From contig CAAFTS010000129.1 of NCBI GenBank assembly GCA_900765975.1, positions 1 through 31,696 of the forward strand: a DNA stretch of 31,696 nucleotides. The letters run 5' to 3'. A model generated the notes under the pieces. The model did no database searches. It saw only the letters and a program-made list of their open reading frames with translations, and was not told the origin of the DNA. This DNA is from Lachnospiraceae bacterium (GTDB taxonomy: Bacteria; Bacillota; Clostridia; Lachnospirales; Lachnospiraceae). Shown piece after piece: positions 7,455-10,223 of this stretch. The position numbers and the translations under genes are program-made. The stretch's first letter is position 1. Each line of letters starts with the position of its first letter.

Positions 7455-7712
7455 ATGACACTGGAAGCGGGAATGTTTGCGAAAGCAAAAGCAGGACATG
7501 ACAAAAATTGTATATATGTCATTATTTCTGTCAATGATGAATATGTATATCTGGCAGATGGGGATGTAAGACCTGTCTGCCGTCCGAAAAGAAAAAATAG
7601 AAAACACATACAGCCGATCACGAGTGTACGCTGCGAATCTATTACAGATGATCGGGTTATCAGGGATGCAGTGAAAATAAGAAAAGAAATAGAAAAAACT
7701 GGAATTATATAA
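7455..7712 (+). CDS. KOW-domain RNA-binding protein (L14e-like)
   Basis: The 85-residue protein begins [19 protein letters not shown], resembling the KOW/L14e-like SH3 barrel: [19 protein letters not shown] followed by [20 protein letters not shown] basic stretch KRKNRKH follows the barrel. Small proteins of this kind are found between adk/map and infA in many Firmicutes and are annotated as KOW-domain or L14E/L6E/L27E-like RNA-binding proteins; their function is not established. It starts 3 nt after the adk stop without an obvious strong ribosome-binding site except GGGAG inside the adk end, suggesting translational coupling. Confidence 0.8.
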
Positions 7713-7738
7713 GTGCAAAAAGCACAGGAGGATTGAAT

Positions 7739-7957
7739 ATGTCAAAGGCTGACGTAATTGAGATTGAGGGAGTCGTTGTTGAAAAACTTCCAAACGCAAT
7801 GTTTAAAGTAGAGTTAGAGAATGGCCATATTGTTCTGGCACATATCAGCGGAAAATTGCGTATGAATTTCATTAAAATTTTACCAGGGGATAAGGTAACA
7901 TTGGAAATGTCACCGTATGATTTGAGTAAAGGACGTATTGTTTGGAGAGATAAATAA
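7739..7957 (+). CDS. infA: Translation initiation factor IF-1
   Basis: The 72-residue product [20 protein letters not shown] has the S1/OB-fold of IF-1, including [26 protein letters not shown]-like [13 protein letters not shown] and the C-terminal [14 protein letters not shown]-1 occupies the ribosomal A site during initiation. I use ATG 7739, 7 nt after AGGAGG at 7726-7731; the in-frame TTG at 7733 is too close to that site. Confidence 0.98.
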
Positions 7958-7966
7958 AAAAAGCTA

Positions 7967-7996
7967 TTGACTTTGTAGGGAACTTGGTGCTACAAT
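7967..7996 (+). promoter_or_regulatory. Internal sigma-A promoter upstream of rpmJ and the alpha operon
   Basis: TTGACT (7967-7972), an 18-nt spacer and TACAAT (7991-7996) form a good vegetative promoter just after infA. It would allow rpmJ-rpsM-rpsK-rpsD-rpoA-rplQ to be transcribed separately from the spc genes. Confidence 0.7.
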
Positions 7997-8009
7997 ATGA
8001 AATGGTCGT

Positions 8010-8034
8010 TTTTAGGGATAGGTGTGCCCTAAAA
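8010..8034 (+). other. rpmJ leader hairpin
   Basis: TTTTAGGG (8010-8017) pairs perfectly with CCCTAAAA (8027-8034) around a 9-nt loop, within the expected 5' leader of the promoter at 7967-7996. No T-run follows, so it is unlikely to be a terminator; it may be a leader structure or a protein-binding site. Confidence 0.5.
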
Positions 8035-8081
8035 TGCCAGGTAACCTAAGAATCCAGCAAAGGATGGAAGGAGGATTTGAC

Positions 8082-8195
8082 ATGAAGGTTAGATCATCAG
8101 TAAAACCAATCTGTGAAAAATGCAAGATTATCCGTAGAAAAGGAAGTATTCGTGTAATCTGCGAGAATCCGAAACACAAACAGAGACAGGGCTAA
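8082..8195 (+). CDS. rpmJ: 50S ribosomal protein L36
   Basis: This very short gene encodes [20 protein letters not shown] and 17 further residues, 37 in total, ending KHKQRQG. C11, C14, C27 and H32 form the zinc site of the C+ type of L36. L36 is the smallest 50S protein and binds 23S rRNA near domains II and V. AAGGAGGA lies upstream of the ATG. It follows infA as usual, but the next gene, rpsM, begins 593 nt later, which is unusual. Confidence 0.97.
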
Positions 8196-8788
8196 TTCAC
8201 TTAGCAAAGTATTTTTGAGCTTAGTGAGAGGCTTCATCCCAAGCGTTGGCGAGGTATTATCAAGCCTAGGCATAAGGATGGGGTTGATGTAGTGTTTAGT
8301 AATTTAGGCGGCTGACAGTTGACACACCAGGAGGCGTGTAGACTGTTTAATATACAGTAAGGATACATCGCATATCTATCACAGGTACCGGTAGAGTCGG
8401 TGTTCTATTGCGTTAATAGAAATCATATTACGCAAGTGTATATTGCTTAAAATACCCGATTTGTACGGATGTTCACAGGCGAATCGGGAAAGGATGTGAA
8501 TATTCGCATCTGGGCTGGGATATCGGGAGCATATCCCGGTAGGGTATTAGATAGAAAGTAATATCCGCAGCCTCAATTTGGGACAATAGTAGACCATGCG
8601 CAGAATTGGATGGAAATCGATACAAGTTTACTTGTATATCGATTGACAGACAAGAATGCATTTGGCGTACGCCAAACAGCAAGATGGAGTACGAAGTACG
8701 GAATCGAGCTAAAGCATGGCGGAACAAGCCATTGCGTAGCATGGCAAAAAGCAAACAGAGACAAAGAAAGAAAATGGAGGAAAGACAC
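8196..8788 (+). ncRNA. Candidate large structured RNA / leader between rpmJ and rpsM
   Basis: There is no convincing ORF here, but inverted repeats fill the region: TTCACTTAGC/GCTTAGTGAG (8196-8228), ACACACC/GGCGTGT (8322-8339), TTGCGTTAAT/ATTACGCAA (8408-8435), CCCGATT/AATCGGG (8455-8488), GATGTGAATATTCGCATC (8493-8510), GGGATAT/ATATCCC (8517-8537), TATTA/TAATA (8545-8563), AATCGATACAAG/CTTGTATATCGATT (8615-8644), TTTGGCGTACGCCAAA (8661-8676) and GCATGGC/GCCATTGC (8714-8735). Sense orientation with the operon is assumed. I do not recognise a known riboswitch, RNase P, tmRNA, group I or group II intron core. It could be a long leader for rpsM-rplQ (which includes rpsD, whose S4 product represses the alpha operon in E. 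coli), an independent RNA processed from the operon transcript, or a decayed insertion. Confidence 0.5.
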
Positions 8789-9157
8789 ATGGCTCGTATT
8801 GCAGGTGTAGACTTACCAAGAGACAAACGTGTAGAAATTGGTTTGACTTATATTTATGGAATTGGAAGAACAAGTTCAAACCGTATTTTAGCAGAGGCTG
8901 GAGTAGATCCAAGCACTCGTGTCAGAGATTTGACACAGGATGACGTTAAGAAAATCAGTGAGATCATCGACGCTTCTCAGATGGTAGAAGGTGATTTGAG
9001 AAGAGAGATCCAGCTGAACATTAAGAGATTAAAAGAAATCGGTTGCTATCGTGGAATCCGTCATAGAAAAGGACTTCCGGTACGTGGACAGAAGACAAAG
9101 ACTAATGCAAGAACATGCAAGGGTCCAAAGAGAACTGTAGCAAATAAGAAGAAATAA
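8789..9157 (+). CDS. rpsM: 30S ribosomal protein S13
   Basis: The 122-residue protein starts [20 protein letters not shown] and continues [14 protein letters not shown] with the C-terminal [18 protein letters not shown] tail. S13 contacts P-site tRNA and bridges to L5. I use ATG 8789 with GGAGG at 8776-8780. The open frame extends upstream to 8606, but the extra ~61 residues are not conserved S13 sequence and coincide with inverted repeats, so they are not coding. Translation may be affected by the structures just upstream. Confidence 0.97.
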
Positions 9158-9200
9158 TCATTGATAAAATTTGAAGAAAGAAGAAAGTAGGTTAGTTTAA

Positions 9201-9596
9201 ATGGCTAAGAAAGTTACAAAAAAAGTGACAAAAAAACGTGTCAAGAAAAACGTTGAACGAGGACAGGCTCACATCCAGTCATCTTTTAATAATACAATCG
9301 TAACATTAACAGATGCTCAGGGAAATGCTCTTTCATGGGCAAGTGCAGGCGGTCTGGGATTTAGAGGTTCAAGAAAATCTACTCCATATGCAGCTCAGAT
9401 GGCAGCTGAGACAGCAGCAAAAGCAGCATTGGTACATGGTCTGAAGACTGTAGACGTATTCGTAAAAGGACCTGGTTCAGGAAGAGAAGCAGCAATTCGT
9501 GCATTACAGGCATGTGGTATTGATGTAGTAAGTATCAAAGATGTTACTCCGGTACCGCACAACGGATGTCGTCCACCGAAACGTAGAAGAGTCTAA
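9201..9596 (+). CDS. rpsK: 30S ribosomal protein S11
   Basis: The 131-residue product has a lysine-rich N-terminus ([20 protein letters not shown]) and the S11 core [39 protein letters not shown] and the C-terminal [19 protein letters not shown]11 forms part of the platform at the mRNA exit. The ribosome-binding site is weaker than those of neighbours (AAGTAGGTTAG, about 7-10 nt upstream). Confidence 0.97.
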
Positions 9597-9629: not shown

Positions 9630-10223
9630 ATGGCAGTAAATAGAGTTCCAGTTCTTAAAAGATGCCGTTCATTAGGTATGGACCCAATCTATTTAGGAAT
9701 TAATAAAAAATCTAATAGACAGCTGAAAAGAGCAAATAGAAAAATGAGCGAGTATGGTCTTCAGTTACGTGAAAAACAGAAAGCTAAATTTATCTACGGT
9801 GTATTAGAGAAACCTTTCAGAAACTACTATGCAAAAGCAAAACAGATGGATGGAATGACAGGTGAAAACCTTATGATCCTTCTGGAATCCAGACTGGACA
9901 ATGTAATGTTCCGTATGGGATTTGCAAGAACAAGAAAAGAAGCACGTCAGATCGTTGATCACAAGCACGTACTTGTTAATGGTAAACAGGTGAATATCCC
10001 ATCTTACCTTGTAAAAGCAGGAGATGTGATTGAAATCAAAGAGAAACACAAAGGATGCCAGAGATACAAAGACATTCTGGAAGTAACAGGCGGAAACATG
10101 ATTCCTGACTGGTTGGAAGTAGACGCAGAGAACCTGAAAGGTGAAGTAAAAGAACTTCCGAAGAGAGAAGCAATCGATGTTCCGGTTGACGAGATGCTGA
10201 TTGTCGAGTTGTATTCTAAATAA
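9630..10223 (+). CDS. rpsD: 30S ribosomal protein S4
   Basis: The 197-residue product has an N-terminal S4 domain beginning MAVNRVPVLKRCRSLGMDP without the Cys4 zinc site, and an S4 RNA-binding domain LESRLDNVMFRMGFARTRKE-ARQIVDHKHVLVNGK (about residues 90-125). S4 nucleates 30S assembly; in E. coli it represses its own operon by binding the leader upstream of rpsM. In Bacillus rpsD is elsewhere, so its place between rpsK and rpoA here is the clostridial arrangement and makes S4 feedback on this operon plausible. AGGAGG precedes the ATG. Confidence 0.97.
   Translation: MAVNRVPVLKRCRSLGMDPIYLGINKKSNRQLKRANRKMSEYGLQLREKQKAKFIYGVLEKPFRNYYAKAKQMDGMTGENLMILLESRLDNVMFRMGFARTRKEARQIVDHKHVLVNGKQVNIPSYLVKAGDVIEIKEKHKGCQRYKDILEVTGGNMIPDWLEVDAENLKGEVKELPKREAIDVPVDEMLIVELYSK

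Follow-up and report, generated by a model that had tools for sequence, protein, structure and literature searches.

A probable S4-type leader RNA with a candidate two-state design between rpmJ and rpsM in a Lachnospiraceae alpha operon

Background

Why does a ribosomal protein operon carry 593 nt between two of its genes? In the window analysed here, a stretch of 31,696 nt from a Lachnospiraceae bacterium (GenBank assembly GCA_900765975.1, contig CAAFTS010000129.1, forward strand), the genes called around this interval are adk, infA, rpmJ, rpsM, rpsK, rpsD, rpoA and rplQ, and the operon runs in the order rpmJ-rpsM-rpsK-rpsD-rpoA-rplQ. The gene rpmJ (ribosomal protein L36; 8082–8195, plus strand, TIGR01022) stops at 8195, and rpsM (S13; 8789–9157, plus strand, TIGR03631), the first cistron downstream of the interval, starts at 8789 behind a Shine-Dalgarno sequence, GGAGG, read on the plus strand at 8776–8780. 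The presumed ligand, S4, is encoded in the same operon by rpsD (9630–10223, plus strand, NF003717). Known S4 leaders are structurally unrelated RNAs that regulate ribosome supply.

A first-pass annotation had described the interval as a densely structured region inside the alpha operon with at least ten inverted repeats and no supported open reading frame, placed where relatives usually have a short spacer. It had considered a large regulatory leader, an embedded RNA species or an unknown selfish RNA. Here we address which of these readings fits the interval, and how its parts may work.

Methods

Intervals between rpmJ and rpsM were collected from 198 sequences, including non-Lachnospiraceae, and yielded 175 distinct intervals, 130 of which were at least 120 nt long. 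Six fetched loci yielded no interval, among them three repeat loci that lie far from rpsM. Both anchors of the core were present in 78 of the 130 intervals, and 61 of these 78 entered the P2 and energy tests; the swap test of strand B and tail used 44 of 47 rows. Alignment A1 (MAFFT, 28 sequences, not fitted to structure) omits five long leaders and locus L141, and A2 comprises 17 of its 28 rows. In alignment A4, MAFFT misaligned helix P4 and the tail between groups, and for that reason a second model was not made from it. The covariance model of the upstream module was designated R1. Covariation in a structure-fitted alignment of 49 sequences was judged by an in-house tree-based null, with 200 alignments simulated and 10,011 column pairs examined. 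Pairing-probability sums were compared with mononucleotide-shuffled nulls in 78 leaders for P7 and 61 for P2.

Results

The interval is structured on both strands

The minimum free energy of the interval was −185 kcal/mol, compared with −143.7 ± 6.4 kcal/mol in 100 dinucleotide shuffles, none of which was as low (z = −6.43), and the predicted fold contains more than ten hairpins; the dense structure and the inverted repeats of the first-pass annotation were thus confirmed. The minus strand was also unusual (z = −6.18), so that the strand must be decided by comparison, not by energy. A hidden gene was rejected, as the open reading frames at 8473–8826 (minus strand) and 8610–8810 (plus strand) had no family match in NCBIfam; the absence of a supported open reading frame holds for these two of the three frames, the third being 8573–8788 (minus strand, 71 aa).

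A promoter-like site (TTGACT, 18 nt, TACAAT, with TG preceding TACAAT; 10 of 12 letters agree with the consensus) at 7967–7996 on the plus strand, upstream of rpmJ, is a possible start of the rpmJ-rpsM transcript, to judge from its sequence. Promoter-like sites in the scanned region were not in excess (3 found, mean of 4.4 in shuffles), and an internal promoter was rejected because the sites were weak and not more numerous than in shuffles. The 12-mer CAAACAGAGACA at the 3′ end of rpmJ recurs before the rpsM ribosome binding site (8170–8192 and 8747–8762 in the window), and does so in L001 and L105 as well; this is perhaps a partial duplication of the rpmJ end, or chance.

Long intervals prevail in the family

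The expectation of a short spacer in relatives proved wrong here. Among 89 intervals sampled from the family, which are those with the best rpsM matches and not a random draw, 77 were at least 120 nt long and 75 measured 200–550 nt; long intervals prevail, and the region is not absent in relatives. An interval of about 20 nt is typical of Paenibacillus, and 27–47 nt were found in some Lachnospiraceae. The 593 nt of the window were the longest among the intervals measured. The closest rpsM in the genome collection, 97% identical, belongs to Mediterraneibacter agrestimuris (locus L001), where the interval is 504 nt.

A copy of the S4-Clostridia motif lies in the interval

At the Rfam gathering threshold the region had no match. 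With an E-value threshold, the S4-Clostridia leader motif (RF03140) emerged at 8488–8581 on the plus strand with 35.9 bits and E = 3.6e-7. Since this score lies 1.6 bits below the cut-off of 37.5, the window copy is called ortholog-like and sub-threshold and is, as far as its sequence tells, not a listed member. Model positions 1–55 aligned in full, with GAAAGG followed by the two consensus hairpins. According to the fold of 8437–8595, these are P5 (8492–8499 with 8504–8511) and P6 (8512–8517 with 8568–8573), the latter enlarged by P6a and P6b. The match is placed upstream of rpsM-rpsK-rpsD-rpoA-rplQ, as in the family, and among 14 loci scanned, L010, L013 and L017 exceeded the cut-off at the same place.

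RF03140 was above cut-off in 54 of 299 Lachnospiraceae genomes and at E ≤ 0.01 in 77 of them, with no match in 14 control genomes. At class level it was found at E ≤ 0.001 in 5 of 291 genomes, including G199 and G219, which were already in the family draw; the class-level match L253, whose fetched locus has neither rpsM nor rpmJ, was read as a false positive. Matches to HOTAIR_2 and Afu_304 were read as chance. The E. coli-type alpha leader (RF00140) reached 17.2 bits (cut-off 38, E 0.2), and besides RF03140 and this weak match there were no Rfam leader families in the window.

The motif is the 3′ part of a larger, covarying RNA

Directly 5′ of RF03140, and overlapping its opening, positions 8302–8493 form a conserved module with covarying stems, for which Rfam (15) reported no family; its conserved blocks are visible in the alignment of relatives. 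The near-invariant motif GGCGGCTG (8307–8314, plus strand) has the core GCGGCTG (8308–8314), which is present in 106 of the 130 intervals of at least 120 nt, against about 1.7 expected from mononucleotide shuffles. This core is presumably the complement of CAGCCGC in the conserved 530 loop of 16S rRNA, an observation of little weight, since a chance match is possible for any 7-mer and L101, L112 and L113 carry variants of the motif.

On the plus strand, the module comprises helix P1 (8314–8319 with 8342–8347) with hairpin P1b (8322–8327 with 8334–8339), together spanning 8314–8347; helix P2 (8349–8356 with 8437–8444; 8349–8444), seen in folds and pairing sums and enclosing a variable arm, P3; and helix P4 (8455–8464 with 8479–8488; 8455–8488), which ends in the first G of the GAAAGG (8488–8493) that opens RF03140. 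RNAalifold on A1 gave 18 pairs, 10 of which changed on both sides in at least one sequence, compared with at most 6 in controls with slid partners. In this alignment 96.0% of cells were paired (at most 43.2% in the slid controls), and double-change cells numbered 69, compared with 22.9 in shuffles; further pair types were no more numerous on A1 than in its shuffles (260/500). One P1 pair was C-G in 14 and U-A in 14 sequences; another was G-U in 26 of 28, which favours the plus strand. In the 49-sequence alignment, double changes occurred in 18 of 25 pairs, and the tree-based null left three pairs at E < 0.05, all inside the proposed structure: 8459–8484 and 8457–8486 in P4, and 8316–8345 in P1. 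With stems that covary and a region that is present in relatives, the reservation of the first-pass annotation on these two points falls away.

R1 had 42 matches in 41 of 299 Lachnospiraceae genomes, with a single match in 40 of the 41. The exception, G222, has two R1 matches and two rpsM loci on different contigs, from a mixed assembly or a real duplication. Of the 42 matches, 37 were checked and adjoin rpsM, four more overlap an RF03140 match, and the remaining one is in G216. R1 and RF03140 occur together in 30 of the 41 genomes, where they overlap by exactly the 6 nt of GAAAGG in 28 and lie about 77 nt apart in two. An RF03140 match within a larger covarying RNA, upstream of rpsM in the 37 of 42 R1 matches that were checked, gives good support to the earlier suggestion of a large regulatory leader, and we consider the core (8302–8588) very probably an S4-type leader.

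One strand has two candidate partners

Strand B (TGTATATTGCTTAAAAT; 8437–8453, plus strand), identified from pairing comparisons and folds, lies directly 5′ of P4 and is common to P2 and an alternative helix, P7. In P7, according to duplex energies and folds, positions 8441–8451 of B pair with the tail behind the S4 motif (TTTGGGACAATA; 8577–8588, plus strand), with A8583 bulged. B occurs in three forms, TATATTGCTT (group I, including the window), TAATATTGCTTAA (group II) and ATTACTTATTG (group III), and the tail varies in step with them. In 44 leaders, B and its own tail had a mean duplex energy of −6.37 kcal/mol, compared with −3.38 ± 0.27 for shuffled tails (lowest of 200 rounds, −4.11). 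Tails swapped between groups I and III gave means of about −3.3 and −3.0; for group II B strands, the tails of group I were better partners than those of group II (−7.08 versus −6.00), and few evolutionary events underlie the cross-group argument for P7.

For P7, the pairing-probability sums averaged 10.3 in group I, 10.9 in II and 7.9 in III (5.1, 5.5 and 2.5 with shuffled tails); for P2, they averaged 8.6, 7.5 and 6.8 (null, 5.7, 3.8 and 4.8). Some individual leaders were no better than the null, for example L024, L051, L151, L174 and L181 for P2, and L144 and L160 for P7. P2 hardly varies within group I and so shows little covariation of its own. Among the downstream stretches compared, the tail ranked first as partner of B in only 40 of the 78 leaders (group I, 19 of 45); with some 36 downstream windows per leader, chance would give about 2. 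Uniqueness of the duplex was thus not upheld, and this was counted against the switch. On visual inspection the tail also pairs with the 5′ strand of P2 in groups I and II, though not in III, an observation that was set aside uncounted.

When 8437–8595 was folded alone, P7 closed P4, P5 and the enlarged P6; when the upstream strand was included in the window fold, P2 formed in place of P7. The predicted energies in the window are −95.1 kcal/mol for the P2 state and −92.2 kcal/mol for the P7 state. P2 was favoured in 51 of 61 leaders, with mean gaps of 4.1, 0.5 and 3.9 kcal/mol in groups I, II and III, and these predicted gaps fall within the error of the energy model. Loci L249–L251 have almost nothing between rpmJ and B and little more than the P7 junction before rpsM. 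The minimal leader L250, without the upstream module, folds as the P7 junction, with a z of only −2.15. P7 with P4–P6 therefore seems to be the core, to which the upstream module was apparently added as a competitor.

Dispersed elements flank the core

Between the leader tail and the ribosome binding site, 8594–8745 (plus strand) resembles the three-hairpin Clostridiales-1 RNA (RF01699), and the z for 8593–8775 was −7.46. Positions 8594–8719 scored 35.3 bits (E 1.4e-6, 176-base search), below the Rfam cut-off of 48, and RF01699 was not reported at E ≤ 5 in a 901-base search of the region. The sub-motif AGATGGAG..CGGAATCGAGC had seven sites in 6 of 200 family genomes and none in the control. 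The site in L255 (genome G086) also lies between an S4 leader and rpsM and had no RF01699 match; two others matched RF01699 at 38.7 and 31.8 bits. In the genus of genome G001, 10 of 12 genomes had RF01699 matches, seven of them above cut-off, with up to 102 in one genome; 16 other leader-bearing loci had none at E ≤ 0.05. L001 holds a shorter stretch with the same closing stem as the window element, which may be a decayed copy older than the split of L001 and the window; its locus (L081) gave no RF01699 match. RF01699 has been described as probably an RNA, probably not cis-regulatory and probably not a riboswitch (PMC2864571).

At the other end, a dispersed hairpin repeat (CACTTAGC..GCTTAGTG) occupies 8198–8226 (plus strand); a pattern search found such hairpins in 11 of the 12 genomes from the genus of G001 and none with the reversed pattern. 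Another, degenerate hairpin of this kind (TTGGCGAGG..AAGCCTAGG; 8246–8270, plus strand) had two weak matches elsewhere in G001 (E 0.046), and similar ones lie on the other strand in L003. The ACTTAGC..GCTTAGT hairpins have a U-U mismatch, which the search pattern imposed, and a possible tandem G-A pair; they often lie close together, and each genome in the genus of G001 has between 0 and 18 exact matches to the pattern. Sites include 8198–8270 of the window and G001:C14:51218-51425, with further ones in G205 and other genomes. We know of no family name for them. An embedded RNA species, as envisaged in the first-pass annotation, is thus partly borne out by the likeness of 8594–8719 to Clostridiales-1 RNA, at a score below the Rfam cut-off, and by the dispersed hairpins at 8198–8270.

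Another conserved motif, ACACATTTCAG followed by a hairpin and GCTG, was found in 26 of 130 leaders of at least 120 nt (one mismatch allowed), upstream of rpsM in L004, L005, L009, L017, L032, L100, L133, L166, L194 and L197, and occurs with or without the S4-Clostridia core. Among the loci scanned in Rfam (L166, L194, L100), only L100 has another match nearby, Alpha_RBS at L100:1693-1794 (23.2 bits, cut-off 38, E 0.036). The motif is possibly another regulatory domain.

Discussion

The 593-nt interval is a mosaic of an S4-Clostridia match, an upstream module, a Clostridiales-1-like element and dispersed hairpins; the last two we read as insertions and not as parts of a switch. For the core (8302–8588) we lean towards a cis-acting, two-state S4 autoregulatory leader inside the alpha operon, and an exchange of P2 and P7 seems, by a modest preference, to be how it works. 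In the absence of free S4, strand B would be held by the upstream strand in P2, leaving the tail single-stranded and rpsM translated. Excess S4 would bind the junction of P4, GAAAGG, P5 and P6 and stabilise P7, which would close the junction and displace P2. The stretch upstream of the ribosome binding site would then be unavailable, and rpsM-rpsK-rpsD-rpoA-rplQ would be repressed. Sequence comparison shows that the module is conserved and linked to rpsM, that P1, P1b and P4 covary, and that P2 and P7 recur in divergent groups. We infer S4 as the ligand from the presence of rpsD in the operon and from the established role of S4 as ligand elsewhere, as described in PMC7247131 and PMC10931766; which way the switch works, and that it controls translation, is likewise our inference. 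The distance from tail to Shine-Dalgarno sequence, about 190 nt in the window genome, weakens simple steric occlusion here.

In the loci L249–L251, little exists beyond the P7 junction, as which L250 also folds, so the upstream module is not obligatory. The S4 leader could then be the known 55-position hairpin motif, with P1–P4 a static scaffold or part of another regulator, and P7 closing the junction without a switch. Of the 52 intervals of at least 120 nt in which the two core anchors were not found, 37 also have a GCGGCTG-type start, 18 of these together with ACACATTTCAG, so the module may be a separate element; however, some of these intervals (L001, L011, L022) are anchor misses. Because B is usable by P2 and by P7 in all three groups, at close predicted energies, we consider a static scaffold rather unlikely.

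The two-state S4 leader must also be weighed against a real leader with another ligand (e.g. S13, S11, L17 or an RNA) or one that acts on transcription, which we judge distinctly improbable. The assignment to S4 is by precedent only (PMC7247131), and E. coli S4 is described as associating with RNA polymerase and acting in antitermination (PMC10931766). On the other hand, rpsD lies within the operon, S4 of both E. coli and B. subtilis autoregulates via RNA leaders according to PMC10931766, and 7700–9250 holds no plus-strand intrinsic terminator. The flanks do hold dispersed elements, as would be expected if the 593 nt in their entirety were a single selfish or mobile RNA, or the remains of an intron or insertion sequence, yet we give this very little credence: for the core it is already largely refuted by the single match in 40 of 41 genomes and by the 37 matches, of 42, that were checked and adjoin rpsM. 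The Rfam search of the region returned no intron or insertion-sequence family, and the phage and plasmid collections held no similar DNA, so that both an intron and an insertion sequence were rejected. The unknown selfish RNA of the first-pass annotation is not needed for the core.

Beyond this locus, we offer tentatively that Lachnospiraceae alpha-operon leaders may be modular ribosomal-protein switches, in which the widespread GCGGCUG module would give an expression platform, P2, that competes with the S4-binding P7 junction for B. The sensing half would vary by lineage (S4-Clostridia junction or ACACAUUUCAG domain). Mobile RNA of the Clostridiales-1 type would be tolerated in these leaders and may be put to new use there, as a further domain placed between the sensor and the ribosome binding site. 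If the two-state leader is real, a complete S4-Clostridia domain with a closing and a competing helix would make ligand, site and switch testable in one abundant gut family, and the Rfam model, which now covers about the 3′ third of the RNA, would be enlarged. Lying between the leader of an essential operon and its ribosome binding site, the Clostridiales-1-like element offers a natural test of whether elements of this kind are neutral passengers.

Within Rfam 15 and the open-access literature (without supplementary alignments), PMC7247131 was the sole paper found to describe this leader; the name S4-Clostridia also appears in the Rfam 14 paper (PMC7779021). As described by Eckert and Weinberg 2020 (PMC7247131), the S4-Clostridia leader (RF03140) resembles the window RNA in its place upstream of rpsM-rpsK-rpsD-rpoA-rplQ and in the GAAA at the 5′ end of the motif, followed by hairpins. 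It differs in that the Rfam model has 55 positions starting at GAAAGG, whereas here these make up the 3′ portion of a longer RNA that also has P1, P1b, P2 and P4, the 3′ tail has its partner, B, upstream of the model, and P6 is enlarged. The B. subtilis rpsD leader (PMC10931766, PMC7247131) is likewise described as a case of S4 autoregulation in Firmicutes, but there rpsD lies apart from the alpha operon, and PMC7247131 gives the Firmicutes S4 leader as not present in Clostridia. The E. coli alpha-operon S4 leader (RF00140), in the account of PMC10931766, shares the operon position, the presumed repressor S4 and a change of mRNA conformation; its site is a pseudoknot that includes the ribosome binding site, whereas the S4 domain of the window lies upstream of it. 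Clostridiales-1 RNA (RF01699) shares the closing stem and three-hairpin layout of 8594–8719, but the window element sits inside an operon leader, between S4 domain and ribosome binding site. The leader is thus of an ordinary kind, namely an S4 leader where one is expected; it appears new in extent, with a conserved upstream module and a candidate two-state design, and it is unusual in carrying a dispersed RNA element before the ribosome binding site of an essential operon.
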